From: Desulfobacterium sp.
Lineage (GTDB): Bacteria; Desulfobacterota; Desulfobacteria; Desulfobacterales; Desulfobacteraceae
Assembly (NCBI GenBank): GCA_016342325.1
Contig: JAEINR010000040.1
Span: forward strand, 1 to 50,803
Length of the DNA stretch: 50,803 nt
Direction: 5' to 3'
Positions 1 through 12,325 of the stretch are shown here, piece after piece. Below the pieces are notes generated by a model. That model did no database searches. It worked only from the letters and a program-made list of their open reading frames with translations, and was not told where the DNA came from. The position numbers and the translations under genes were made by a program. Within the stretch, counting starts at the first letter, position 1; each line of letters begins with the position of its first letter.

Positions 1-5
1 CGCTG

Positions 6-293
6 TTAAAACACCGGGCTTGTCCAACAACCGGATAAGATCGTGGTTCGTTCCTCACACGATCTATCCTTATTCGTCAGGTTGAGCGTGGTATTGATTT
101 CTCTTTCAATATGTGTACGAATGATGCTTGCCTGATTCAGCACCTCTTTTCTCCCTTGGTCACTTTTGTGCTGGTTCTCGAGGAAAAACAGATATTCGTT
201 GGCTGATATCAGACAAGAAAAGATGAGGATTGTGATGATCCGGATGCCACTTTTTTTAAATAAAATATTGTTCATTCTGAAATACCGTATCAT
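6..293 (-). pseudogene. Broken N-terminus of a membrane sensor (CHASE-like)
   Basis: A 95-residue reading frame starts with a short basic stretch and one hydrophobic segment (about residues 18-32), followed by a charged helix with the pattern IRTHIEREINTTLNL around residues 58-72. That pattern resembles the start of periplasmic CHASE sensor domains, which normally continue for about 200 more residues before a PAS or kinase module. Here the similarity stops near position 78, and the rest of the frame (Cys-rich, Arg-rich, ending in WTSPVF) does not look like a protein domain. I read this as a sensor gene truncated by rearrangement or insertion. The start could also be the Met at 275. No functional domain remains, so a product is unlikely. 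The CHASE assignment rests on pattern memory only. Confidence 0.4.
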
Positions 294-532
294 ACTATTA
301 CGCCTAACCCGGATAAGCCGGAACCCAAAAAAAAATCTGACTTTCTTGTCAAAATAACACGTAAACCAGTGCTAGGAAGCGAATATTCAGCCAAAGGATT
401 TCAGGATAGGCGCTTCAATGGTCGCGGTGCAATGGTGTTTTCTTCACGGTGTGGTTCTCGGGATTTTGGATGGGTATAAACATATGGAATGGAGTCCTCC
501 TGTCCATAACTGTCGTTAACGCTAGCTTAGTT

Positions 533-564
533 ATGGTTATCACAAGTAAAATCCGAAAACAAGG
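533..564. repeat. Interspersed intergenic repeat, copy A
   Basis: Shares the core CACAAGT-N5-6-CGAAAACAAGG with copies at 5047-5084 and 10986-11022. It is preceded by ATGGTTA, as in copy B, but lacks the intervening CCGTTAA; a CGTTAAC occurs 20 bases further upstream instead. All three copies have the same orientation and lie upstream of a minus-strand gene. Confidence 0.6.
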
Positions 565-635
565 TCCCAGACCCTTGGGGACCGCTGGATGTCCGGTCAT
601 GGGGAGAAAATGGCGTTTGAAAGGAGGGATGCCAG

Positions 636-668
636 GGTCCTTTGATGGTTTTCAACCACCAAAGGACC
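636..668 (-). terminator. Hairpin downstream of the Fe-S protein gene
   Basis: Two 15-base arms (636-650 and 654-668) pair with one mismatch around a 3-base loop. It begins 17 bases beyond the stop codon of the minus-strand gene ending at 685. There is no U-tract, so termination is inferred from position and stem strength only. Confidence 0.5.
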
Positions 669-684
669 GTGGATGCATTGTAGA

Positions 685-1497
685 TCAGTTTTTGCCAACA
701 GGACAGGCCAGTTCACAGTTTCTACAGTATTTGATCACCTTGACCGGGTCATCGAATCCGTTAACGGGTTGTTCCCTGGCAACGGTATTATCTATTTCCA
801 TCTGCCCATTGCATGCGGGACGACTAAAGCTGCCGTCCCTGGCCGGAAGGATCTCCTGGCCATAGTCTTCGGAGAGATAGAGCGTCTCTTCAAAGCTGTT
901 CTGGGGACATGCTTTTCGGCAAAGATCAGCGCAATTGGCGCAGGGATCAAAGGCGGTGGGGCCTGTGGAAGGAATCTCAACATCCAATGTCAATGCCCGA
1001 AGCCGAACCCTGGGACCCAATTCCGGTGTCACAAGAATGTTGTTTCTGCCGATGCACCCCAGCCCTGCCAGTACAGACGCGTCCTTTAAATAGGTGCCGC
1101 CTTTTTCCACATGGTAGGGCATATGGAAGGTACCGATCCCGAAGGTGTCGGTTATCCAGGGGCACAATTGCCTTACCACAGACGCCAGCACCCGGTTTCC
1201 GGGGGGATCCACCCTGCCGAACCACCAGTCCATTTCTGGTTTATCTTCAGGGTGCTCCACGGCAATGACCAGGACTGTTTTTGCATATTCCGGCCAGGCT
1301 GCCTCACCCGGTTTAAGCCCCAGGTCATTTTTCCGGGTGCCAATCCCTTCTCCGGCATTGGGCATTTGGGGTGCAAATGTAAACGAGGGCGCTTTTTTAA
1401 GATCCGCTACACTTGCAAAGCCACTGAGGGTGGCCCCCAATTCTTTTGCTTTCTTTAATATGGCTGATGATGCTTTCAATAATTCTTTGTTGTTCAT
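685..1497 (-). CDS. QueG-like 4Fe-4S protein
   Basis: A 270-residue soluble iron-sulfur protein related to epoxyqueuosine reductase. The segment AGLGCIGRNNILVTPELG (residues 144-161) matches the conserved AGLGWIGKN region of QueG. Two ferredoxin-type clusters follow: C186-x2-C189-x3-C193-x3-C197-P and, after a long insert containing C229, C258-x2-C261-x3-C265-P. QueG is usually 350 residues or more with C-terminal repeats; this protein stops right after the second cluster, so a tRNA-modifying role is doubtful. It starts 41 bases after the BCCT transporter gene with a GGAG ribosome site, and probably shares its sigma-54 promoter. Related short QueG-like proteins are often found beside methylamine or betaine demethylation genes; an electron-transfer or corrinoid-reactivation job is an inference, since no corrinoid protein or methyltransferase is in view. 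Confidence 0.75.
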   Translation of the reverse strand: MNNKELLKASSAILKKAKELGATLSGFASVADLKKAPSFTFAPQMPNAGEGIGTRKNDLGLKPGEAAWPEYAKTVLVIAVEHPEDKPEMDWWFGRVDPPGNRVLASVVRQLCPWITDTFGIGTFHMPYHVEKGGTYLKDASVLAGLGCIGRNNILVTPELGPRVRLRALTLDVEIPSTGPTAFDPCANCADLCRKACPQNSFEETLYLSEDYGQEILPARDGSFSRPACNGQMEIDNTVAREQPVNGFDDPVKVIKYCRNCELACPVGKN

Positions 1498-1538
1498 ATT
1501 GTTCTCCGGACTACTTTCAATATCCTTTTGATGCCATT

Positions 1539-3119
1539 TTATACGGCAGGTTTAATTTTTTCCTGGGGGATGCACTCCACCTGTGTTGTGAGCGTCTCAC
1601 CATAGTCTTCCTTGAGCCATTTCATCAAAGAGAAAACCATGAGCACCAGGACCGGTATCAGGGGGAGCGCCACAACGATTGAAGAGAGTTGAACCGCCTT
1701 TAAAGCCCCTGTGGACAAAAGTCCCAGTGCCAGGAGGCCCAGTAAAAGTCCCCAAAGGGTTCTGTTCCATCGGGGGGGCTCCTGGTCCCCGGACAGCTCT
1801 TTTGTTACCTGGGAGGAAAGGGTGTACGCCGCCGAGTTTAAGGTGGTGGCAAGAAAGATAGAGCAAAGGATCGTAAAAACAGGGATGTAGATATATTTTG
1901 CACCGGGGATTGTGTTGAGGATGGCAACGATGGTGACATTGTTCGACCAACCGGATGCCTTGAGTATGCTGTAGACATCCAGGCCGCCCGATGTCTGAAG
2001 ATGGATGGCATAACCGCCCCATATGGCGAAGAACACCCCGCATCCCAGACTGCCGTATACCAGTTCGCCAAAGATTACCTGGCGGATGGTTCGGCCTTTG
2101 GATATGCGAGCGACAAAAAGCCCCATCATGGGGGCATAGGCGACCCACCATGCCCAGTAGAACACGGTCCAGCTTTCAGGAAAACCGCCATTCGTAATGG
2201 GATCGGTCCAGAGGCTGAGTCTTAAAAAATCGCTGAGCACAAGGCCGATGCTGTTGCACCAATTATTAAGAATAAAGGTGGTGGGGCCAATGATAAATAC
2301 GTAAAGCAGCAGGAAATAGGCGATATATGTATTGAGACTGGCCAGCTTTGCAATGCCTTTCTTAAGACCCGCCCAAACCGTGATGGTGAAAAGGGCGGTC
2401 CAGACGAGCAGCACGATAACCTGCAGGGAAAATGATTCTGCAAGACCTGTCATTTCCGCGACAAGGGCGGTGCCGAGGGGAACGGCCAACCCCAGGGTTG
2501 TCCCGACCCCACCGATCATGGCAAAGATGACCACGATATCGATTAGTTTTCCCAGCGGTCCGTTCGCCTGGTCACCGATAATCCCTCGGCATGCCGCACT
2601 GAGACGAAGGGCGGGAATCTTTTTAACATGAATGGCATAGGCAATGGGGAAGGTGGGCAGGGCATAGATGGCCCAAGGGGTTATTCCCCAGTGGAATTGT
2701 CCGTACATGCCGGCCAGTTCGCCCAGCAGTCCCTTCTGGGTTTCAGGATTCACATGGAGCATGCTCGTATTCAGATAATAGACCGGCTCGATAAACGCCC
2801 AGTATACGATTGCGATGCCGATTCCGGCACAGAAAATCATCGACGCCCAGGCATAGGTGGAGAACTCTGGTTCGTCTTCAGGGCCGCCAAGCTTTATATT
2901 TCCCCATTTTGAAAAGGCAAGCCAGATGAGAAAAACAACACAAAATAACCCGAATATGAGGAACAGCCATTTGAAATTATGGGTTAAGATATGAAAAAGA
3001 GAGTCTACAACTGCCCTTCCTGATGTTGGAAAGACCGATAAGAGAACACCGATAAGGCCTATTACTGTTACACCTGGCCACATTAAGCTGTGATCAATAC
3101 GTGCTGATTCCTCTGCCAT
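1539..3119 (-). CDS. BCCT family betaine/carnitine/choline transporter
   Basis: A 526-residue inner-membrane transporter with about 12 hydrophobic helices. It has the family features: the FSTYAWASMIFCAGIGI segment near residues 90-106, GGVGTTLGL in the unwound substrate helix, and the signature WTVFYWAWWVAYAP followed by ARISKGRTIRQ. Substrates of the family are quaternary amines such as glycine betaine, choline or carnitine, moved either by Na+/H+ symport or by exchange; the exact substrate cannot be told from sequence. I chose the ATG at 3119, preceded by GGAG at good spacing, over an upstream TTG at 3146. A sigma-54 promoter lies about 120 bases upstream, and the enhancer-binding regulator is the next gene upstream. 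The C-terminal tail is short, which suggests nutrient uptake rather than osmosensing (inference). Confidence 0.92.
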   Translation of the reverse strand: MAEESARIDHSLMWPGVTVIGLIGVLLSVFPTSGRAVVDSLFHILTHNFKWLFLIFGLFCVVFLIWLAFSKWGNIKLGGPEDEPEFSTYAWASMIFCAGIGIAIVYWAFIEPVYYLNTSMLHVNPETQKGLLGELAGMYGQFHWGITPWAIYALPTFPIAYAIHVKKIPALRLSAACRGIIGDQANGPLGKLIDIVVIFAMIGGVGTTLGLAVPLGTALVAEMTGLAESFSLQVIVLLVWTALFTITVWAGLKKGIAKLASLNTYIAYFLLLYVFIIGPTTFILNNWCNSIGLVLSDFLRLSLWTDPITNGGFPESWTVFYWAWWVAYAPMMGLFVARISKGRTIRQVIFGELVYGSLGCGVFFAIWGGYAIHLQTSGGLDVYSILKASGWSNNVTIVAILNTIPGAKYIYIPVFTILCSIFLATTLNSAAYTLSSQVTKELSGDQEPPRWNRTLWGLLLGLLALGLLSTGALKAVQLSSIVVALPLIPVLVLMVFSLMKWLKEDYGETLTTQVECIPQEKIKPAV

Positions 3120-3235
3120 ACTTGTCTCCGTTTTTAAGTTGTTCAATAATAACTATTGATGTCACGGTTTTGACAATGACCGATCAAAATCTTGTAATTG
3201 ATGTCATCGTCCCACAGATACGGGATCTTGGTAAC

Positions 3236-3250
3236 GCAATTATGGTGCCA
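3236..3250 (-). promoter_or_regulatory. Sigma-54 (-24/-12) promoter
   Basis: On the minus strand the sequence reads TGGCAC-CATAA-TTGC, an exact match to the sigma-54 core TGGCAC-N5-TTGC. It sits about 120 bases before the chosen BCCT start and downstream of the gene for a sigma-54 enhancer-binding protein. This is strong evidence that the transporter and Fe-S protein are transcribed by RpoN polymerase. Confidence 0.88.
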
Positions 3251-3342
3251 ATGCACTAGTGAGTCGGAAAGGCTGCCGGAAGGGGTGTATGAAGGGGTGA
3301 GTAAAGATAAAGAATTAAATAGAGTAAAAAAAATTTGCGGTG

Positions 3343-3382
3343 TTTGTAAAATTGTTTTTACATGGCAAAATAATTTTACAAA
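3343..3382. promoter_or_regulatory. Probable enhancer site (UAS) for the sigma-54 regulator
   Basis: Two perfect 11-base arms, TTTGTAAAATT (3343-3353) and AATTTTACAAA (3372-3382), form a dyad 93-132 bases upstream of the -24 element, the usual distance for enhancer-binding proteins. Inside it are two smaller dyads, GTAAAA-N4-TTTTAC (3346-3361) and GCAAAAT-A-ATTTTAC (3365-3379), about 18.5 bp apart centre to centre, as expected for two dimers binding nearly in tandem. The right arm overlaps the last codons of the regulator gene. A terminator role is possible but the AT-rich stem makes it weak. Confidence 0.65.
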
Positions 3383-4947
3383 TTTTTTGCTTCCAGATTG
3401 AACTTGACCTCTGAAAGATAGCGCCGTAATCCAAGCTTGTTGAGTTTATATCCCAAAAGTTGCCTGGACATACCCATCAATCCGGCCGCTTTTGAAATAT
3501 TGCCCCCGGTGGTTTCCAAGGCCTTTATAATGGTGGTTCTTTCCAAATGTGTCTTTGTGTCGGCCAGTTTGCCCCCCCTGTCTTGAAAGCCATCCATGGG
3601 GTGTTGGTGGGACGGCATTTCCGAGACAAAAGGGTCTTTTCGGGCATATCCGTAATCTCTGGCGTTGCGGGGAGCGTGGGATGACTGTCCGGCAGGATAA
3701 CGATCTTTGTTTTGATCTTTTCCAAGAAGATTGGCAAAATAACAATGTTCCAGTTCCAGGGTCTTTTCATCCACCCCTGTCATATTTACTGCACTTTCGA
3801 TAACATGTTGCAGTTCTCTCACATTTCCAGGCCAGGGGTATCTGCAACAGAAATCGATAAGCTCAGGAGAGATGTTTTTTATTTTTCTGCCAAGGGTCCG
3901 GTTATATTTCTGGAGAAAATGCCGGCCCAGTTCCTCAATATCAACCACCCGGTCCCTCAAGGCTGGAATATTTATGAAAATCACGGCAAGCCGGTAAAAA
4001 AGATCCATTCTGAATTCACCGGACGCGATCAGATCCTTTGGATGCCTGTTCAGTGAGCTGATGATCTTCACATTGAGATCAATGGATTTTAAAGAGCCGA
4101 CCCGACGGACCTTTTTTTCCTGGAGTACCCGGAGTAATTTGCCCTGCAGTGGCAAGGGCATGGAATTTATTTCATCAAGAAAAATGGTCCCTCCATTGGC
4201 TTTTTCAAACAGGCCTGCCCGGTCCAAAGCCCCGGTATACGAGCCTTTAGCTGTTCCGAATAAAATTCCTTCAATGAGATTTTCAGGAATTGCCGCACAA
4301 TTGATATCCATATAGCATTCCTGTTTGGAATAATAAAAATTATGGATCGCCTGGGCAAAGAGTTCTTTTCCGGTGCCTGTCTCGCCGTAAAGAATAACTG
4401 GGGAGGGGGAATTGCCGGCCATTTTGGCTGTTTTTACCGCATCGATAAATGTCGGGTCCGATCCTAGGATGCTTGCGAAGGTAAAACGGGTCCCTTCGGC
4501 GAAGTCTTCATTATTTCTGGGTGAGAGAAAAGATGGGATCGAGCGCTCCAGTATATTATAATCTTTTACAATACAGATGGTGCCGATGATCTTTTTCCCC
4601 TTGAACAAAGGAAAGACACTGTGAATGGTATTCCCGACATTCGCATTCCTGGAGCTGTAGGAGAGGGCATAGTTGATGATTGGGCGGCCGTGTTTTAACA
4701 CCCTCATGCAGGTACTGGAATCATTGTTGTACTTATACACATCGGTTATCTTTTTCCCCAGCACATCAGCGGGGTCAAGTTTGTCAATGGTAGCCTGGAC
4801 ATCATTATAAAATACAAGGATGCCTTGATCATCTGTCATGAGAACGCCTTGATCAAAGTGGCACAGCATGCCCATAAAATCAATTTTACTGAAATCAAAT
4901 CCGTCGAACATAAAATTTTTATCAAGAAAATGGTGATTCGGGGGCAT
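3376..4947 (-). CDS. Sigma-54-dependent transcriptional regulator with PAS domain
   Basis: A 523-residue enhancer-binding protein. An N-terminal PAS-like sensor domain (about residues 25-135) is followed by an AAA+ domain with Walker A GETGTGKE (188-195), the sigma-54 loop as GSYTGA (235-240) in place of GAFTGA, Walker B GGTIFLDE (252-259), and a C-terminal Fis-type helix-turn-helix (GGNISKAAGLMGMSRQLLGY). It would hydrolyse ATP to open RpoN promoters in response to a small signal bound by the PAS domain. There is no receiver domain. I chose the ATG at 4947, preceded by AAGGA; an upstream start at 5082 would translate an intergenic repeat. Its likely targets are the -24/-12 promoter and dyads just downstream, which drive the BCCT transporter and Fe-S protein; betaine-type compounds are a plausible signal (inference). 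Confidence 0.9.
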   Translation of the reverse strand: MPPNHHFLDKNFMFDGFDFSKIDFMGMLCHFDQGVLMTDDQGILVFYNDVQATIDKLDPADVLGKKITDVYKYNNDSSTCMRVLKHGRPIINYALSYSSRNANVGNTIHSVFPLFKGKKIIGTICIVKDYNILERSIPSFLSPRNNEDFAEGTRFTFASILGSDPTFIDAVKTAKMAGNSPSPVILYGETGTGKELFAQAIHNFYYSKQECYMDINCAAIPENLIEGILFGTAKGSYTGALDRAGLFEKANGGTIFLDEINSMPLPLQGKLLRVLQEKKVRRVGSLKSIDLNVKIISSLNRHPKDLIASGEFRMDLFYRLAVIFINIPALRDRVVDIEELGRHFLQKYNRTLGRKIKNISPELIDFCCRYPWPGNVRELQHVIESAVNMTGVDEKTLELEHCYFANLLGKDQNKDRYPAGQSSHAPRNARDYGYARKDPFVSEMPSHQHPMDGFQDRGGKLADTKTHLERTTIIKALETTGGNISKAAGLMGMSRQLLGYKLNKLGLRRYLSEVKFNLEAKNL

Positions 4948-5046
4948 CTGAATATCCTTGGCCTTGTTTTCTAAGGTTTTTCTATTTGCCCCCAATGGGC
5001 CTGAACTTGGGGGATGCAACGCCCCATATGGGATAATCATGTTGAC

Positions 5047-5084
5047 ATGGTTACCGTTAACACAAGTATTCTTCGAAAACAAGG
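5047..5084. repeat. Interspersed intergenic repeat, copy B
   Basis: Reads ATGGTTACCGTTAAC, then ACAAGT, then TTCGAAAACAAGG. It matches copy C at 10986-11022 over nearly its whole length and copy A at 533-564 in the right half. A CCATATGGG motif lies about 25 bases upstream, with similar CATATG motifs near copies A and C. It is 100 bases upstream of the sigma-54 regulator start. The adjoining stretch to 5165 also holds a GC-rich imperfect hairpin at about 5128-5154, just past the stop of the next gene upstream. Confidence 0.65.
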
Positions 5085-5165
5085 ACTGGAGCGTGGGGGC
5101 AGTCCCAGGCGTTGGATACCCTTTTATGGCCGGAGGGGTGACTCCCCCCCAGCCTCCTGGTGTCC

Positions 5166-5612
5166 TTATTCCTGATCCTGGTGGATAATCTCCTCAACTA
5201 TTTTGACCGCATCCTCAACATAATGGATGCACTGGGTCATTTTGAGATCCTTTTCCATGAATTGACTGAGGCCTTCCTCACTGAGCACATCAAGACCGAT
5301 GAGCTGGCAACAATTGAGATTCCCGTGGCGGGCTTTGAATCTTTCTGTAAATGCGGCTATTTTCTCAAACACAGTTTGAAAGGCCGCCCCATCAGTGGCC
5401 TTTTTCATGCCGTATTCCAAACCGAGAACCATGAAGGCGCCGGTCACTGCGCCACATTCCCCCCCCTGACCTGAACCTGCGGCAAGCGGGTTTGCAATTT
5501 TTCTGGCGAGTATGGGGTCAAGCCCGTAATCTTCGGCAAATGCCTCCAAAACCGCCTGGGAACAGTGAAACCCTTCTGAAAAACGTTGGAAGGCCAATTC
5601 AATTCTTGTCAT
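5166..5612 (-). CDS. C_GCAxxG_C_C family protein
   Basis: A 148-residue protein with the spaced cysteines that name this family: HCSQAVL (C17), GGECGAVTGA (C54), NCCQLIG (C100-C101) and a last cysteine near 127. The family is widespread in anaerobes, probably binds metal or an Fe-S cluster, and has no firmly established function; members often sit next to redox enzymes. A strong AGGAG site precedes the ATG. It lies between the alkene reductase and the sigma-54 regulator, all on the minus strand, but gaps of more than 200 bases on both sides suggest its own transcript. Confidence 0.85.
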   Translation of the reverse strand: MTRIELAFQRFSEGFHCSQAVLEAFAEDYGLDPILARKIANPLAAGSGQGGECGAVTGAFMVLGLEYGMKKATDGAAFQTVFEKIAAFTERFKARHGNLNCCQLIGLDVLSEEGLSQFMEKDLKMTQCIHYVEDAVKIVEEIIHQDQE

Positions 5613-5862
5613 TGTTTTCTCCTCTTAGATTATTCAGGTTTTTCCGTGATGTGCCAGCCCGGGTCAAATCCCTATTTTTGGGATCCGGCCAGATTGAAAT
5701 ACTCAATAGCCGATCGGTTTTTTTGTGTCCAACAAAAAGAATCGATGGTAATGATCGAAAAAAATGAACAGAGGATTGCGTTTGGGGGGACTTTGGCGGG
5801 GGCGCCGGGATGATCCTGCTGGGCCATGGCATATCCGTTATCTTTGGCGATGCCTGGGGGAT

Positions 5863-5897
5863 CTGACAGGCATCTTATTTTATCCGATGCCTGTCAG
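5863..5897 (-). terminator. Hairpin downstream of alkene reductase
   Basis: Perfect 12-bp arms CTGACAGGCATC (5863-5874) and GATGCCTGTCAG (5886-5897) with an 11-base loop, starting 10 bases past the alkene reductase stop codon. There is no clear U-tract on the minus strand. The rest of 5613-5862 shows no gene. Confidence 0.55.
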
Positions 5898-5907
5898 GAT
5901 CGCCTTA

Positions 5908-7008
5908 TTACACGGCGGTGGGTGGTTTGAACGGCCCATAATCCGTATATCCTGGGGCGCCCGGAGTGTACCACAAGGACATATCCTCGGCAGGATCCAG
6001 GGGCCAACCGTTCTTGAACCGTTGGGGCAGGTCAGGGTTTGTAATAAAAGGCCGGCCAAAGGCGATCATGTCTGCATTCCCTTCCGCGATTCTCCCTTGA
6101 GCCGCTTCTTTGGTATAACCGCAATTGCCGATAATCATTCCCTGGTAGATGGGCCTGAATTCCGCCAGGGTCATGGGGTCTCCTTTTTCGTGGAAACCAA
6201 AGGCCAGTCCATCCATGATATGGAGATACCCCAGGTTGAACTTGTCCAGCTCTTTTACCACATGAAGGTAGGTCTCCCTGAAGTTTTCGCTGCCCATGTC
6301 ATTGAAGATGCCGTTGGGTGAAATGCGGACCCCCACCTGCTCCGGCGCCCAGACTTCCAGAACCGCTTCCAGCACCTCTTTTAAAAAACGGTATCTGTTT
6401 TCAACGCTTCCCCCGTATGGGTCCTCCCTTTGATTGGTTTTTGAATCCAGGAATTGATTGAGCAAATACCCATTTGCGCTGTGGACTTCTATGCCGGAGA
6501 AGCCGGCTTCCTTGGCATTTTCGGCGGCTTTCCGATAATCATTCACCGTTGCCTTGATCTCGTCAACGGATAATGCCCGGGGTGTTTCATACTCTTTTTT
6601 GCCAAGGGGTGTGTGGATGTGATCGCCGTTGAGCTTGATTTCGGATGCTGAAACAGGGGGGGCGCCGTCATGGAAATCACTGTGGGACGCCCTGCCGCAA
6701 TGCCAGAGCTGGAGGAACATGGGGGTGCCTGTCGGTTTGATTTTATCTGTGACGATTTGCCAGCCCTCAACCATCTCTTTGGTGTAGATCCCCGGCGAAT
6801 CGATCCAGCCGATGCCCTGTTTGGAAATCACGGTCGCCTCGGTGATCAGGAGGCCGGCTGCGGCCCTTTGGTAGTAATGTTCTGCCATCAGGTCATTGGG
6901 CACACGGTTTGCCCCGGCCCGGCCCCTTGTCATGGGTGCCATGGCAATTCTGTTTTTCAACTGAAGAGTTCCCATGGAGATCGGTTTAAATAAGCTGCTG
7001 GTTGTCAT
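5908..7008 (-). CDS. nemA: Alkene reductase, old yellow enzyme family
   Basis: A 366-residue FMN-dependent TIM-barrel oxidoreductase that reduces activated C=C bonds (and often nitro groups or N-ethylmaleimide) with NAD(P)H. Visible features are the N-terminal LFKPISMGTLQLKNRI strand, MAPMTRGRA, the substrate-binding pair H176 and N179 in EVHSANGYLLNQFL, and the DPYGGSVENRYRF phosphate-binding motif. Length fits the NemA/OYE class. The AGGAGG site is optimal. It is followed by a hairpin, and lies downstream of a rubrerythrin-like protein and a SagB-type nitroreductase on the same strand, suggesting a detoxification or redox-stress context (inference). Confidence 0.92.
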   Translation of the reverse strand: MTTSSLFKPISMGTLQLKNRIAMAPMTRGRAGANRVPNDLMAEHYYQRAAAGLLITEATVISKQGIGWIDSPGIYTKEMVEGWQIVTDKIKPTGTPMFLQLWHCGRASHSDFHDGAPPVSASEIKLNGDHIHTPLGKKEYETPRALSVDEIKATVNDYRKAAENAKEAGFSGIEVHSANGYLLNQFLDSKTNQREDPYGGSVENRYRFLKEVLEAVLEVWAPEQVGVRISPNGIFNDMGSENFRETYLHVVKELDKFNLGYLHIMDGLAFGFHEKGDPMTLAEFRPIYQGMIIGNCGYTKEAAQGRIAEGNADMIAFGRPFITNPDLPQRFKNGWPLDPAEDMSLWYTPGAPGYTDYGPFKPPTAV

Positions 7009-7062
7009 CCTGTTTCCTCCTGAAAATAGATTGCGTTATGGTGGGGGGCGGCCTGGAGGCAA

Positions 7063-7110
7063 TGGGCAAAGGGCCGACCCTCGTGGCAAAGGGCCGACCC
7101 CCGTGGCAAA
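7063..7110. repeat. 20-bp tandem repeat
   Basis: Two full copies and part of a third of the unit GTGGCAAAGGGCCGACCCTC, in the gap between the rubrerythrin-like gene and nemA. The copies differ by single bases. No function is evident. Confidence 0.7.
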
Positions 7111-7127
7111 GTGCAAATGCCGGTAAA

Positions 7128-7643
7128 TCAGAACGGCCAGAAACGGTTGTCTTCCCAGACACTGTCCAGCAGTGCCCTGTCAATGTCCATGAGCCTGTTC
7201 AGGTGTTCCCTTTCCCAACCGGCAAGCCAGGCATACACTTTTTTCTCTTCAGGATCACCGGCATTTTTAGCCTGCTCAGAATAGACTTTGATGGCCTGCT
7301 GTTCCATGGCAATGGCCGCTGCAATGGCCGAGGCTTCAAAACCGGCTGCCGAAATTTTCTCCCGGATTCCCTTGTCCAGGACGGCTGAAGCCAGTTGGCT
7401 CTTTTCTGTTTCGTTAAAAGAATCTGCCTTAAAATGGCCGGTATCGCTGTATGCTTTAAACTGGGCTGACAGCACGTTGATATGGCCGGCCTCTTCCTGG
7501 GCCATGGAATCAAAAAAGGAGCGAACGGATTCATCCTCTACCTGTTCCGCTACTTTATTGTAAAACGCAAGCCCCCGCTTTTCGAGTATGATCGCTTGTT
7601 TTAAAATGTCCAGGGTTCCTGCAACTTTTTCTGTTTCGGTCAT
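7128..7643 (-). CDS. Rubrerythrin-like diiron protein
   Basis: A 171-residue four-helix ferritin-like protein. The diiron ligands are visible as E21 in the first helix, E51-x2-H54 (EEAGH), a Glu in the MEQQAIKVY helix near residue 114, and E-x2-H in GWEREHLN near residue 148. There is no C-terminal rubredoxin domain, so it is a rubrerythrin-type erythrin core rather than a full rubrerythrin. Such proteins reduce peroxide or handle iron in anaerobes. It begins 19 bases after the SagB-like gene with an AGGAG site and probably shares its transcript. Confidence 0.85.
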   Translation of the reverse strand: MTETEKVAGTLDILKQAIILEKRGLAFYNKVAEQVEDESVRSFFDSMAQEEAGHINVLSAQFKAYSDTGHFKADSFNETEKSQLASAVLDKGIREKISAAGFEASAIAAAIAMEQQAIKVYSEQAKNAGDPEEKKVYAWLAGWEREHLNRLMDIDRALLDSVWEDNRFWPF

Positions 7644-7662
7644 GGTTTCTCCTGATTAAAAT

Positions 7663-8433
7663 TTAATTTTTCCGCTCCCGGATTTTACCCACAGGCGCGA
7701 GATAGATGGCAAATTCATCCTTGCCGTCAAGTCCCAGAAGCTGATCCAGTTGCTCCTGGTCATAGGCGGCAATGGCACAGGTCCCCGCCCCAATGGCTTC
7801 GCAGGCCAGGTAGAGATTCTGGCATACATGGCCCGCATCCAGCAAGATGACCTTGTGGGCGGCAAGGTCATAGCGCCACTCCATTCTATGGGGAATGGCC
7901 ACCCAGATAAAGGTGACGGCTGCCTTTCCCGGATAGGGTTGTCCCAGGGAGGCTTCAACCATTTTCTCCGGAAGCAGATCTTCTGCAAATTCAAAGAGCA
8001 GTTCATGGCTCAGGGGCAGGTAGCGATAGATACCCGGGGGCAGCCCTTCCACATTCAGTACCCCAAGATAGGTTTCAAGGGCGTGACGGCACCCGGCAGA
8101 GGGAACGTTCCGGTAGGCATTGCCATGGGACGGTTTCCCCCTCACTCCCTGGGTGCACCATAAAAGATAGGCCAGTTCCTCAAGGGAAAGGGACGCTGCC
8201 TGGTAGGCCCGATGACTTTTCCGGCCCTTGATGGCCTGGGTCAGGTCGGTTTTTGGAATGGTTTTCCATGTTTCCGGTCCGGGCAATTCAATGGGAATGG
8301 CGTCGGCAGAATAGGGCTTTTCAATGGGGGGAACCGGCACGCCCCTGTTTTGATCCGTAAATGTGAAGTTGATTTTCTTTCGGATACTGTCCTTGAGGAA
8401 GTATCTGTAGATCTCACGATCATTTTTAATCAT
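7663..8433 (-). CDS. SagB/ThcOx-type nitroreductase family protein
   Basis: A 256-residue FMN oxidoreductase of the SagB/ThcOx branch of the nitroreductase fold. Diagnostic stretches are AIKGRKSHRAYQ, SLEELAYLLWCTQGV, SAGCRHALETYLGV and the C-terminal IGAGTCAIAAYDQEQLDQLLG. Some relatives oxidise azolines in peptide natural products, but no precursor peptide or cyclodehydratase is nearby, so general flavin-dependent reduction is more likely. I chose the ATG at 8433, which has a GGGAGGAG site; the frame extends upstream to 8559 without one. It is followed closely by the rubrerythrin-like gene. Confidence 0.88.
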   Translation of the reverse strand: MIKNDREIYRYFLKDSIRKKINFTFTDQNRGVPVPPIEKPYSADAIPIELPGPETWKTIPKTDLTQAIKGRKSHRAYQAASLSLEELAYLLWCTQGVRGKPSHGNAYRNVPSAGCRHALETYLGVLNVEGLPPGIYRYLPLSHELLFEFAEDLLPEKMVEASLGQPYPGKAAVTFIWVAIPHRMEWRYDLAAHKVILLDAGHVCQNLYLACEAIGAGTCAIAAYDQEQLDQLLGLDGKDEFAIYLAPVGKIRERKN

Positions 8434-8486
8434 TTCTCCTCCCTTTGCTGCAACGTTATTCCCTGATTGGCCAAGGAGACTGTCGC

Positions 8487-8837
8487 TTAGAAGGTGATCA
8501 CCTGGTAATCCTGTTCCACGTACTTTGCGATACTGGGATGCCCCTTCATCTCTTTGCACAATGGCAGTCCCTGGGCTTCAATCCCCTCCAGGGCCCCCAG
8601 CTTGGACGCACAGGCCTGGCAAACACAATCGATTAATCCTTTTTCCCGAACATCCTGGTAGAGCTTTGAAAAGGGGTTATTCTCATCTACCAGCTCATTT
8701 ACGACCCGGGTGGCACTCCCTTCGATCACCACTTTTACGTCATATCCTTTTCCTTTCATATCCAGGGCATTCAGCAACACATGAACAAAGCACATGGGGT
8801 CACCATTGAAAGCGACCAGAACGACACGTCTATCCAT
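8487..8837 (-). CDS. DsrE-like small cytoplasmic protein
   Basis: A 116-residue alpha/beta protein with the layout of the DsrE/DsrF-like family: VVLVAFNGDPMCFVHVLLNALDM at the N-terminus, VKVVIEGSA in the core, then a cysteine-rich CVCQAC loop (about residues 70-75) and a late PLCKEM. DsrE relatives bind or relay sulfur through cysteines. Here the cysteines are more clustered than in true DsrE, and no DsrF/DsrH partners are present, so a sulfurtransferase role is only a possibility. The start has a GGAG site. It lies 53 bases upstream of the SagB-like gene. Confidence 0.7.
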   Translation of the reverse strand: MDRRVVLVAFNGDPMCFVHVLLNALDMKGKGYDVKVVIEGSATRVVNELVDENNPFSKLYQDVREKGLIDCVCQACASKLGALEGIEAQGLPLCKEMKGHPSIAKYVEQDYQVITF

Positions 8838-8898
8838 TGTTATTTCTCCATAGTAAAATAATGATACCGTTTACCCCAAAGGAGTGTTCCTCCGGGGC

Positions 8899-9720
8899 TT
8901 AATCCTTGACAATAGCAGAAGCATTCTTATCAAACGGGTTGGTTCTCAATGCAAGAGAGAAAAGGTATGGATACTCTTTCTTGAGATGGCCCATATGGGT
9001 GGCCCACTGCACGATCAATCTTCTGTAGGCGCGGGCTATGTCACCTGTAATATGGGTGATATCTGATTCCGGCACGTATTTAAGGTCCTTCCGGTTCGCC
9101 AGTTCCTCCATCAGGTGGAAGACACTGAGCAATGAATCACTGAATCCTTCATGCTCAATGAGTACGGGATTTTCAAGCAGACCCAGCAGAAAGCCCCTTT
9201 TGCTGTTCAGGAAATCCCGCAATTCTTCCAGGTTCAATTCTGCGGCATCTATTTTTACCTTATATCCCTTAAGCTGTTTCAGGGCGGCTGCAAAACGGGC
9301 TTCCGTCCAGTTCGAACCCACCAGAAGATCGTTTATTACCCCATCAATGGCATGGTCACAGCTTGAGAATAAAGATAAGAGCTCATGTCCCACTTCACTG
9401 AAGAATACACCGAGGACCATGTTGACCTTTCTGAGCCTGGTTTGTGATTCTCGTTTCAGTATCAACATCTCAGTTGCGTTTGCGATGACCCCAAGAAAGG
9501 TCGCTCCTCCCATCACGATCAACAGAACGGCGAACATGCGACTGGATTGACTGGTCGGATGAATGTCACCGTATCCAACCGTGGACATGGTGACGATGTT
9601 GTAGTAAAAAGCCTCGGCCAGGGAGAGTTGCTCCAACACCATGAAGCCAACAGTGCCGATCACTGTCACCAGTAAAAACAGGGTGAGAAATATTTGCAGT
9701 CTCCTGCGTACCTCCTCCAT
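8899..9720 (-). CDS. Two-helix potassium channel with unidentified cytoplasmic domain
   Basis: A 273-residue ion channel subunit. Two membrane helices (about residues 9-29 and 61-80) flank a pore loop with the selectivity filter TVGYGD at 47-52, as in KcsA/MthK-type K+ channels. The remaining 180 residues are predicted mostly helical and contain none of the glycine-rich nucleotide-binding pattern of RCK/TrkA-N domains that normally gate such channels; I do not recognise this domain. I chose the ATG at 9720 rather than a GTG two codons earlier. Upstream, 58 bases away, is a PAS histidine kinase on the same strand; downstream, 61 bases away, is the DsrE-like gene. Confidence 0.88.
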   Translation of the reverse strand: MEEVRRRLQIFLTLFLLVTVIGTVGFMVLEQLSLAEAFYYNIVTMSTVGYGDIHPTSQSSRMFAVLLIVMGGATFLGVIANATEMLILKRESQTRLRKVNMVLGVFFSEVGHELLSLFSSCDHAIDGVINDLLVGSNWTEARFAAALKQLKGYKVKIDAAELNLEELRDFLNSKRGFLLGLLENPVLIEHEGFSDSLLSVFHLMEELANRKDLKYVPESDITHITGDIARAYRRLIVQWATHMGHLKKEYPYLFSLALRTNPFDKNASAIVKD

Positions 9721-9778
9721 AGTCACATCCTTGAATCGAGAAGTTTATCCGTTCCCACCCATCCTTTCCACGTCTACG

Positions 9779-10924
9779 CTACTCTTTTGTGCGCTTTGTT
9801 CCTCCGGGGGGCAGCGAAAATACGAACACTGTACCTTCTTCCCTGGATGTTGTAAAGCCGACTTTCCCGCCAAGGATTTGTTCCCCGAATAATTTCATGG
9901 AAAAAGTGCCGATGCCTCTTCCGTCCCCCTCTTTTGTACTGAAATTGCGCTGGAATATTCGCCGGGCGATCTCCTGTGGGATCGGTCGCCGGTTCCAAAC
10001 CCAAAAAGAGACCCGATCATCGCTTTCTTCAAGCCACACCTTTACCCTGCCGTTTTCCTTGGTACCTTCAAGGGCGTTTGTGATCATGTTGCAAAGGATG
10101 CGGAGCAACAATGACATATCTGTTTTGATGGACAGGGCTGGGCAAGGCTCCTGGAAATCTATCGCCTTGTTCCTTGCTGCCGGGTGGTTGATGAAAAAGG
10201 ATCTAAGTTCTTCCATCACGATACGTATATTGAATCTTTTCCATGAAGGCTGGTAGAGGCTGGATTCATTCTGCAACAGGCATCTTTGGATCTCCACCTC
10301 TTTTTTCAGGCGTAATGAGGCGGTGAGAATCTGTTTAACAAGATTGGATTCACTTTCTTTGAGGGAAAGCAATTCACTTGCCCCGACCAGTCCGCTCAAC
10401 ATGTTGTTTACATCATGGAAAAAGGTCCTTGCAAGTGCCGCCCTCTGCTGTTGGACGGTAATATCCTGTAAAAATAACAGCAGGAATCTTTTCCCATTGA
10501 TTTTGATTGGCTGGGATTTGACCATCAGGGCAATATCCACGGTCCGGTCGCCCCTGTTGGCTGTCAGGGCACACATCCTTTCAACAGGTTTGTCCTGGCC
10601 CAGGCTGGAAACGATCGCCATTGCGGCCCCGCAGGTGGAGCACAATTTGGTGGTGCCGCAACCGGCAGGTTCGTCCCGGGCATGGATACATTGCAAGGCT
10701 TCCCCCGGTCGCAGCCCAAGGGCCTGGGACGGATCTTCAATGCCAAGCATCTTCAAAAAAGAATCATTGATAGAAATAATCTGCCGATGTTCATCCAGGA
10801 TGGCAAGCACACCGCTGACCGAATGGAGCAAGCCGGACATTACGGGGTCCTTGTTTATCAATTCAATTTTCGCAACAAGTTCTTGTTTATCCCCTCGTTC
10901 AGCCGGGGCAAAATAGGTGTCCAT
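9779..10924 (-). CDS. PAS-domain sensor histidine kinase
   Basis: A 381-residue cytoplasmic kinase without membrane segments. The PAS domain (about residues 28-155) carries a cysteine set C79, C89, C95, C98 in the pattern C-x9-C-x5-C-x2-C, which may bind a metal or Fe-S cluster as a redox sensor (inference; this pattern recurs in deltaproteobacterial PAS kinases). The phosphoacceptor is H170 in FFHDVNNMLSG, with Asp where Glu is usual. The ATPase domain has NMITNALEG (N box) and GDGRGIGTFSMK (G2 box); its G1 box is degenerate (VWNRRPIP in place of DxGxG). No response regulator is adjacent. GGAGG precedes the ATG. It is the first gene of the minus-strand run. Confidence 0.88.
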   Translation of the reverse strand: MDTYFAPAERGDKQELVAKIELINKDPVMSGLLHSVSGVLAILDEHRQIISINDSFLKMLGIEDPSQALGLRPGEALQCIHARDEPAGCGTTKLCSTCGAAMAIVSSLGQDKPVERMCALTANRGDRTVDIALMVKSQPIKINGKRFLLLFLQDITVQQQRAALARTFFHDVNNMLSGLVGASELLSLKESESNLVKQILTASLRLKKEVEIQRCLLQNESSLYQPSWKRFNIRIVMEELRSFFINHPAARNKAIDFQEPCPALSIKTDMSLLLRILCNMITNALEGTKENGRVKVWLEESDDRVSFWVWNRRPIPQEIARRIFQRNFSTKEGDGRGIGTFSMKLFGEQILGGKVGFTTSREEGTVFVFSLPPGGTKRTKE

Positions 10925-10985
10925 TTGTTGAATACCTCCCTAGGAAAATATCCCCATATGAATCTCTTCTATCACATCCTGTCAA

Positions 10986-11022
10986 ATAGTTACCGTTAAC
11001 ATAAGTCTCCGCCGAAAACAAG
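10986..11022. repeat. Interspersed intergenic repeat, copy C
   Basis: Reads ATAGTTACCGTTAAC, then ATAAGT, then GCCGAAAACAAG. Closest to copy B. It starts 62 bases upstream of the histidine kinase start, in the same orientation relative to that gene as copies A and B are to theirs. CCCCATATG lies about 30 bases before it, similar to copy B. Confidence 0.65.
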
Positions 11023-11064
11023 AATAACCCCCGACCCTCCTGTTTGCCTGAATAGGGCGTTTCT

Positions 11065-11097
11065 CTGAGTTGGGTGCCCCAATGGCACGAAACTCAG
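11065..11097. repeat. Palindromic hairpin
   Basis: Two 14-base arms (11065-11078 and 11084-11097; CTGAGTT...AACTCAG at the base, TGCC...GGCA at the top) pair at 12 of 14 positions around a 5-base loop. No U-tract follows on either strand, so it looks more like a palindromic repeat than a terminator. Confidence 0.6.
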
Positions 11098-11365
11098 CGG
11101 TAAGACCCTAGAAACAATTTGATGGGATGTAAAATCTATAGTAGTCTTTTTAAAGAAGGGGATACTAAAGATGAATATACAGTACCCATAAAACGCTTAA
11201 TTTCGAAGTAGATTGATGTTCTGCCAGCGTCATCCTAACATGCCATACCCAGGGGGGAAGCCTCCTTGGTCCTTCCTCGAAAATATTGGATATTAATATA
11301 ATGATGGGTTCATCTCCTCTAATCGTCTTTTAACATCGCAAAACCCATAAGGGAGCTTAATAACG

Positions 11366-12325
11366 ATGCATGAAACAAAAATAAGATCATTTTCTCTTTT
11401 TTTGATTTTATCCATTGCCTTTATCAGCTGCGGCCCGGAAATGCATGATCGACCACTACGCCTTGGAACAAATATTTGGCTTGGCTATGAACCGCTTTAC
11501 TTGGCAAGGGAAATGAATTTTTTTGATAAAAATCCCATCAGATTGGTGGAAGCGACATCTAATTCTGAAGTGATTCAAGCGTTCCGTAATAATGCACTGG
11601 ATGCCGCTGCTTTAACGTTGGATGAAGTGCTGCTCCTTGCCCAGTCCGGCATAGATCTCAGGGTGATATTAATTATCGACTTTTCCCATGGCGCTGATGT
11701 CATTATGGGGCAGCCCGGTCTTGCCGGATTTAAAGATGTCAAAGGCAAGCGGATAGGCGTGGAGAATACCGCAGTAGGTGCCTATATGCTAGCCAGAGCC
11801 TTGCAAATGAACGGCCTTACACAAGAAGATGTGTACATTGTTCCGTTGGAAATCAATGAACATGAACGTGCATTTGTAGAAAAGAAAATAGATGCGATTG
11901 TCACCTTTGAGCCCGTTTATTCGAAATTGCTTGTCAAAGGGGGGCAAAAGCTGTTTGACAGCAGTCTGATACCCGGAGAAATTGTTGATGTCTTGATTGT
12001 TCGAACAGAATATCTCCAAAAAAACCGGCAAAAGGTAAATACACTTTTCCAGGGCTGGTTTCAGGCTTTGGCCTATCTTGAGGAAAGGCCAAATGATGCA
12101 GCCGCGGTCATGACTGCCCGCTTGGGAATAACTGTCGATCAAGTTCTGAAATCACTCAATGGTCTTCGGTTCCCCGATCAAACGGAAAACAGGCAAATGA
12201 TTTCCGGTACAGGAGGCATCATCATCGAAACCGGGGAGAATCTTATTCGATTTATGCGCGAACAGAATTTGCTTCGCAAACAGATTGACATGGCCTCTCT
12301 GATTGAAAATGGCAGATGGGAGTAG
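11366..12325 (+). CDS. NMT1/SsuA-like substrate-binding lipoprotein
   Basis: A 319-residue secreted lipoprotein (signal peptide to the lipobox FISC, Cys22). The mature part follows the nitrate/taurine/thiamine-precursor-type binding fold: LRLGTNIWLGYEPLYLARE, then SNSEVIQAFRNNALDAAALT, VKGKRIGVENTAVGAYML and a DAIVTFEPVYSKLL hinge segment. In transporters it would hand a small organic ligand to an ABC permease, but no permease or ATPase follows. Instead, three bases downstream, comes a membrane PAS protein, so the lipoprotein probably serves as the ligand-sensing partner of that receptor (inference). The start is the ATG after AAGGGAGC. Confidence 0.88.
   Translation: MHETKIRSFSLFLILSIAFISCGPEMHDRPLRLGTNIWLGYEPLYLAREMNFFDKNPIRLVEATSNSEVIQAFRNNALDAAALTLDEVLLLAQSGIDLRVILIIDFSHGADVIMGQPGLAGFKDVKGKRIGVENTAVGAYMLARALQMNGLTQEDVYIVPLEINEHERAFVEKKIDAIVTFEPVYSKLLVKGGQKLFDSSLIPGEIVDVLIVRTEYLQKNRQKVNTLFQGWFQALAYLEERPNDAAAVMTARLGITVDQVLKSLNGLRFPDQTENRQMISGTGGIIIETGENLIRFMREQNLLRKQIDMASLIENGRWE

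Follow-up and report, generated by a model that had tools for sequence, protein, structure and literature searches.

A putative sigma-54 operon that pairs a BCCT transporter with a QueG-like iron-sulfur protein in Desulfobacterium

On balance, we favor the view that a minus-strand unit in this genome of Desulfobacterium, a relative of marine sulfate reducers, is a dedicated and inducible sigma-54 operon that serves to import a betaine-like solute and use it anaerobically. One of its products would be a cousin of the class III B12/[4Fe-4S] reductases. (The DNA we analysed, or the window, is a contig of 50,803 nucleotides, C164, from a genome of 6.67 Mb.) The unit comprises an enhancer-binding activator, a BCCT transporter, and a QueG-like protein whose gene lies 41 nt downstream of the BCCT gene (Table 1). 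Betaines and DMSP are major solutes of marine sediments.

Table 1. Features of the unit and their positions in the window
Feature	Position	Strand	Basis
QueG-like protein, 270 aa, with two [4Fe-4S]-type cysteine sets	685-1497	-	Profile alignments
BCCT-family transporter, 526 aa	1539-3119	-	PF02028 (E = 4e-146); DddT (433 bits); aromatic box and Na2 threonines kept
-24/-12 (sigma-54) promoter element, TGGCACCATAATTGC	3236-3250	-	Pattern match, shuffles, orthologous loci
Composite dyad with perfect outer arms of 11 bp; candidate upstream activator sequence	3343-3382		Repeat search, shuffles
Promoter-proximal half-site, TGTAAAAACAATTTTACA (minus strand)	3345-3362		14 of 14 core positions; exact TGTAAAA-N4-TTTTACA
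Promoter-distal half-site, TGTAAAATTATTTTGCCA (minus strand)	3363-3380		12 of 14 core positions
PAS-AAA+-HTH_8 enhancer-binding activator	3376-5082 (frame)	-	Pfam, orthologue alignment

The control region and its conservation

The initial annotation described an exact TGGCAC-N5-TTGC promoter between the regulator and the transporter, and such a site is indeed present (TGGCACCATAATTGC, 115 nt upstream of the BCCT start codon). It is the single exact match in the window. If one mismatch is allowed, the window has 5 matches versus 3.9 expected, so there is no excess over chance. Across the genome, the exact pattern occurs 46 times, versus 10 times for a reversed control, so we rejected the exact match alone as decisive proof. 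Instead, a strong case for the promoter is carried by its position, the dyads, and conservation. The GG and GC elements have the standard spacing and lie downstream of putative activator sites, as in sigma-54 promoters. Between the end of the activator gene and the BCCT start, the promoter score was equalled by 1 of 500 dinucleotide shuffles.

A perfect 11-bp dyad made of two smaller dyads had also been described, at 93 to 132 bp upstream of the promoter. Both distances are correct, and so is the composite structure. The outer arms (TTTGTAAAATT at 3343-3353 and AATTTTACAAA at 3372-3382) are perfect inverted repeats. The two 18-bp half-sites, TGTAAAAACAATTTTACA and TGTAAAATTATTTTGCCA, are spaced by 18 bp and start 112 and 130 nt upstream of the -24 element. 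None of 500 shuffles reached the sum of the two dyad scores. In the 6.67 Mb of the genome, TGTAAAA-N4-TTTTACA, the exact core, has a single occurrence, and one other place matches it with one mismatch. The dyad overlaps the stop codon of the activator (3376-3378). Both half-sites have the form TGT-N12-ACA, exactly or nearly, and excerpts of PMC6615313 describe TGT/ACA repeats with a 10-12-bp spacer for activators including PrdR. These dyads are most likely the target of the adjacent activator, because they are kept in most of the loci that we scored, because their core is unique in the genome, and because the genome has one match to RpoN.

We then compared the unit across related genomes. Orthologues of the activator (at least 61% identity) are present in 8 of 97 other genomes, and in all eight the QueG-like gene is beside or near the activator. 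Orthologues of the QueG-like protein (at least 59% identity) are present in 9 of the 97. One of these nine genomes (G027) has its QueG-like orthologue, at 59%, with neither an activator orthologue nor a BCCT gene beside it. Two genomes from the same genus lack a QueG-like orthologue. Cultured strains that carry the unit include Desulfospira joergensenii and Desulfocicer vacuolatum.

We scored promoters and dyads in 14 activator-linked loci, including the window, each with 500 shuffles. (Two of the 14, L043 and L077, are near-copies of each other, and in L081 and L139 the activator has just 48-49% identity.) The promoter score beats the shuffles in 12 of 14 loci (19 or fewer of the 500 shuffles match it). 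In L074 the promoter is weak (77 of 500 shuffles score as high). In L079 the scored region was cut too short, and we read the site, CGGTATGCATATTGCT, by eye. The annotation had proposed comparing the dyads across related genomes and would have counted a lack of conservation against its reading. Apart from four loci, this adverse outcome did not occur: conservation of the dyads is seen in 10 of the 14 loci, where 8 or fewer of the 500 shuffles match the paired-dyad score. It is not seen in L076, L078, L085, and L088 (449, 61, 114, and 141 of 500 shuffles), which hold other AT-rich stretches. In the loci that score well, the starts of the half-sites lie roughly 90-155 nt upstream of the -24 element. 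Overall, the regulatory reading gains support from this comparison.

In some orthologous units, the activator and the QueG-like gene are kept and the transporter is from a different BCCT subfamily; in L044 and L045 it shares 34-35% identity with the BCCT of the window. The BCCT proteins of L080 to L082 are 76-79% identical to that other subfamily. In a Desulfotignum MAG (L077:9543-9962), the start of the intervening BCCT gene is present, but most of its reading frame is absent between the activator and QueG-like genes.

A scan of positions 550-5200 for terminator-like sites found none between the activator and the BCCT gene. At the gathering score, Rfam gave nothing for positions 1-12000, and the window had no match in a plasmid collection. 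Upstream of the activator, at 5166-8837, lie several redox genes, which encode a C_GCAxxG_C_C protein, an OYE-type reductase, a rubrerythrin-like protein, a SagB-type nitroreductase, and a DsrE-like protein. We considered these as members of the unit and rejected them because matches to them are absent from all 8 orthologous clusters (L039-L046).

The activator and the transporter

The regulator had been described as an enhancer-binding protein with a PAS sensor. This is borne out by Pfam matches to PAS, Sigma54_activat (PF00158, E = 3e-57), and HTH_8 (PF02954, E = 2.5e-10), so the protein has both the AAA+ domain that interacts with sigma-54 and a Fis-type helix-turn-helix. Its sigma-54 contact loop is GSYTGA, and the 11 relatives that we compared have GAYTGA or GAFTGA. 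We take GSYTGA to be a working variant of GAFTGA. The open reading frame begins at a TTG (5082), but the ATG at 4947 is a likelier start, because alignments to orthologues begin at about residue 40-55.

Among NCBIfam families, the activator scores best against PrdR, but with 318 bits versus a cut-off of 795. The arrangement resembles one-component sigma-54 operons of the PrdR, NifA, and FhlA type: the activator gene adjoins its putative target, and there are TGT/ACA inverted repeats and a -24/-12 promoter. The difference from PrdR is in the targets, which are proline reductase for PrdR and would be the BCCT transporter and the QueG-like protein here.

In this genome, the activator's nearest paralogue (44% identity) is followed by genes for BCCT, MttB, BCCT, a corrinoid protein, and a methyltransferase, and this operon has a -24/-12-like site of its own (TGGTATGCAACTTGC). 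We also examined 21 loci from other genomes with more distant relatives of the activator (L162-L182, with flanks of up to 1.5 kb). Eight of these have a BCCT or MttB match, one has a glycyl radical enzyme, and twelve have none of the three. The genome of the window has 9 BCCT genes, and for 7 of these an MttB match (weak in one case: C19, 48 bits) lies no more than about 5 kb away. The exceptions are the window's BCCT and another on C31. Given the MttB or BCCT company of the nearest paralogue, of 8 of the 21 distant loci, and of seven of the nine BCCT genes, the activator's subfamily appears to consist of regulators for the catabolism of onium compounds.

By a looser pattern, a -24/-12-like site precedes MttB, or the BCCT gene ahead of it, in four of this genome's five strong MttB loci (L002, L184, L185, and L186, on contigs C168, C182, C72, and C60). 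This suggests that onium demethylation may be widely under sigma-54 control in this genome. MttB in Clostridia is named as sigma-54 regulated in excerpts of PMC12316311. Relatives of Desulfobacterium are reported to turn glycine betaine into dimethylglycine, and MtgAB is apparently responsible (PMC6716910, in part). That report shows the physiological setting rather than the job of the window's unit. The unit shares its activator subfamily and its kind of promoter with an operon in this genome of the glycine betaine demethylation type (MttB/MtgB, MtgC, and MtgA with BCCT). In contrast to such operons, it has no MttB, corrinoid protein, or MtgA, and has a QueG-like gene instead.

The transporter clearly belongs to the BCCT family (487.7 bits to PF02028, versus a cut-off of 27). 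Its best match among solved structures is DddT (PDB 21ff), ahead of a trimethylamine transporter (265 bits), CaiT (265 bits), and BetP (224 bits). It falls below the cut-offs for CaiT as an L-carnitine/gamma-butyrobetaine antiporter (NF002887; 406.9 bits versus 541) and for BCCT proteins of glycine betaine uptake (NF047988; 384.6 bits versus 650).

We examined the binding residues by carrying positions over by hand from the alignment with DddT. DddT is a DMSP importer, and the roles of its residues are from excerpts of PMC13270143, which also report two tested homologues that do not transport DMSP. Trp144, Trp324, Trp325, and Tyr328 match the aromatic box of DddT (W140, W320, W321, and Y324), and the Na2 threonines, 418 and 419, are kept as well. 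Some other positions differ: in the box, S204 and G101 of DddT are replaced by Thr and Ala, and at Na2, V98 and A99 are replaced by Ile and Gly. Among the Na1 residues of DddT, M92 and S422 are kept, and L252, S256, and D421 are replaced by Ile, Ala, and Asn. Because the aromatic box is kept, the transporter is predicted to import a small, zwitterionic onium compound akin to glycine betaine, carnitine, or DMSP, and the prediction is supported at the level of kind. The annotation had been more specific and spoke of a quaternary amine. An onium-type importer is supported; a quaternary amine is plausible but may be too narrow, since the nearest solved structure imports DMSP. No DMSP lyase was recognised among the window's genes that were scanned, which are part of its reading frames.

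The QueG-like protein and its genomic neighbors

At E = 1e-3, the QueG-like protein has no match in Pfam, and it has weak matches to TIGR00276 and TIGR02486; for its family, Pfam gives weak ferredoxin-type matches alone. The scores are far below the cut-offs for both QueG (TIGR00276; 30.7 bits versus 200) and the reductive dehalogenases (TIGR02486; 29.6 bits versus 160.35), which sets it apart from both. We rejected the name reductive dehalogenase because of the cut-off, and the name epoxyqueuosine reductase because of the cut-off and the active-site motif described below. Profile searches against the PDB found QueG (E = 2e-10) and PceA-type dehalogenases, and a profile of 77 QueG-like sequences aligned to E. 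coli QueG over 227 columns with a probability of 95.9.

What the protein shares with QueG and the reductive dehalogenases, which are class III B12/[4Fe-4S] enzymes, is the set of eight cluster cysteines and an AGLG-x-IG-x-N core. Cys186, Cys189, Cys193, Cys197, Cys229, Cys258, Cys261, and Cys265 are each present in at least 76 of the 77 sequences. They are predicted to form two [4Fe-4S] sets, as in class III enzymes in the wide sense.

Class III enzymes share the tyrosine of QueG's DYH motif. In QueG, this motif (D100-Y101-H102) and D130 are active-site residues (PMC4646009, in part). DYH does not align here: in its place is P-G-N, of which Gly100 and Asn101 are invariant (the comparison uses a one-sequence template, and the register is uncertain). 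With the same one-sequence template, the QueG aspartate aligns with Glu131, which is present in 74 of 77 sequences. We take this aspartate of E. coli QueG to be the catalytic one. E. coli QueG was the sole template for these motifs, because L190 and L192 turned out to be another QueG-like group that lacks DYH. The family also lacks the C-terminal repeats of QueG. Instead, it has an invariant Asp90 and Tyr128 and mostly conserved tryptophans (Trp91 in 68 of 77 sequences and Trp92 in 69 of 77). The label QueG-like should be read more narrowly: the two cysteine sets align with QueG, and this is a separate family, below the cut-off and with no aligned DYH. B12 binding is plausible from the alignments, but because the DYH motif, including its tyrosine, is not aligned, B12 chemistry is not assured.

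We also surveyed the neighbors of QueG-like genes in the best 80 loci of 111 relatives. (In Desulfobacterales bacterium HSG2, a single contig carries identical copies in opposite orientation at either end, L103 and L104, perhaps because of an assembly artefact, so 79 loci are distinct.) A BCCT match lies within 5 kb in 22 of the 79, and the survey spans Spirochaetales, Fuchsiella, a Bacillota MAG, and gut Clostridia. In a 72-locus count, from which a frame filter removed L074, L101, and L139 (with BCCT) and L102, L120, L137, and L140 (no BCCT match), 19 loci have a BCCT gene within 5 kb, versus 0.8 expected at the BCCT density of the window's genome (a density that may be higher or lower in other genomes). 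In 14 of the 72 the BCCT gene is within 300 bp. The other 57 of the 79 have no BCCT within 5 kb, and just 34 of 72 loci have full 5-kb flanks on both sides. On a quick tree, in which 29 of 74 inner branches have support below 80, the BCCT label changes 13 times, so linkage to BCCT was probably gained or lost more than once.

Other neighbors vary. In four Clostridia (L107, L117, L118, and L133), which group together with good support on the quick tree, an AGCS-type amino-acid carrier directly follows the QueG-like gene (one was named by profile and three by clustering with it). Three loci have APC amino-acid permeases beside it, named likewise by profile and then by clustering. In L083 (5463-10837), the QueG-like gene is 22 bp downstream of an ectoine-hydrolase-like gene (522 bits, under the cut-off of 613) and an M20 amidohydrolase. 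In G027, it lies beside ProXWV (ProX and ProV are above their cut-offs and ProW is below). In L141 (5642-12462; the same locus as L057), the QueG-like and BCCT genes are divergent from a (2S)-3-sulfopropanediol dehydratase and its activase. The dehydratase scores above its NCBIfam cut-off and is preceded by an exact TGGCAC-N5-TTGC site (at 7431 in L057).

Possible roles of the unit

We infer the following sequence of events. A signal would be sensed via the PAS domain, and the activator would bind the two half-sites, which reach into the end of the activator gene, and loop to RpoN-RNA polymerase at the promoter. The BCCT and QueG-like genes would then be switched on as one transcript, and the transporter would bring in a small zwitterionic onium solute. 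As a tentative last step, to which we give somewhat less than an even chance, the QueG-like protein would act reductively on the solute or on its product, in place of MttB.

A lesser possibility, and an unlikely one in our view, is that the QueG-like protein is a helper for MttB-dependent demethylation: it would reduce or repair the corrinoid protein of a methyltransferase that is encoded elsewhere, and the unit would provide uptake and the helper. The genome has 7 MttB matches, none of them on the window's contig, and the gene order activator-MttB-BCCT-QueG, on one strand, in L080 fits a helper role, as does L085, where MttB adjoins QueG-BCCT. However, just 2 of the best 80 loci of 111 relatives have an MttB match near the QueG-like gene (many contigs are short), and amino-acid carriers are the neighbors in some Clostridia. 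Also, the genome already has six RACo-type matches, which is why we prefer reductive action on the solute. The annotation's term, a self-contained unit, is roughly right for this genome and less so elsewhere: an MttB-type gene lies in or next to the unit in 2 of the 13 other activator-linked loci, so the unit may work with enzymes encoded elsewhere.

BCCT proteins are frequent importers of compatible solutes, so the transporter might instead serve osmoprotection, with the QueG-like gene as a passenger or a general redox protein. ProXWV and the ectoine-hydrolase-like gene, as neighbors in other genomes, would suit that role. We consider it quite unlikely, because the MttB or BCCT genes within 1.5 kb of 8 of 21 further loci of the activator's subfamily point to catabolism, and because the QueG-like gene stays with the activator despite the change of BCCT subfamily in L044 and L045.

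It is very improbable that the -24/-12 match and the dyads arose by chance in AT-rich DNA and that the genes run from another promoter: the genome-wide count of exact sites and the four loci with non-significant dyads leave some room for this, but the joint occurrence, spacing, and conservation of the sites and the unique core argue against it, and sigma-70-type matches in 550-5200 are about as frequent as in shuffles (7 versus a mean of 5.8). That the QueG-like protein is the organism's epoxyqueuosine reductase and lies beside the transporter by chance is largely refuted: TIGR00276 is its weak best NCBIfam match, and the 99.99% complete genome has neither QueH nor a TIGR00276 match at 1e-40, which leaves the final step of queuosine synthesis with no assigned gene there (such matches are present in 3 of the 23 genomes searched, and matches above the family's cut-off in 0 of 23), but its score, its length of 270 aa with no C-terminal repeats, the unaligned DYH, and the restriction of its orthologues (at least 59%) to 9 of 97 other genomes weigh heavily against it.

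A bolder idea is a long shot: the small QueG-like proteins might form a new lineage of corrinoid/[4Fe-4S] reductases, whose role in anaerobes would be the reductive cleavage of C-N (or C-S) bonds in imported betaine-type solutes. They would then be an equivalent of betaine reductase that needs no selenium, and the conserved Trp, Asp, and Tyr residues would form an onium cage above the cofactor. The main known anaerobic routes for betaines and DMSP are those of MttB-type methyltransferases and of betaine reductase, a selenoprotein. Both are also covered in excerpts of PMC6716910. In the literature that we searched, we found no published account of a BCCT transporter paired with an epoxyqueuosine reductase-like protein, and the excerpts of the sigma-54 regulon literature (PMC6615313, PMC4641369, and PMC12316311) name no BCCT or betaine target that we could find.

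Overall, a switch that is largely kept in relatives, and that apparently has a single target, probably turns on a betaine-type importer and an unstudied Fe-S protein. This redox partner is more interesting than the label QueG-like implies. The operon's presence in cultured strains offers a defined place to test a possible further route for betaines.
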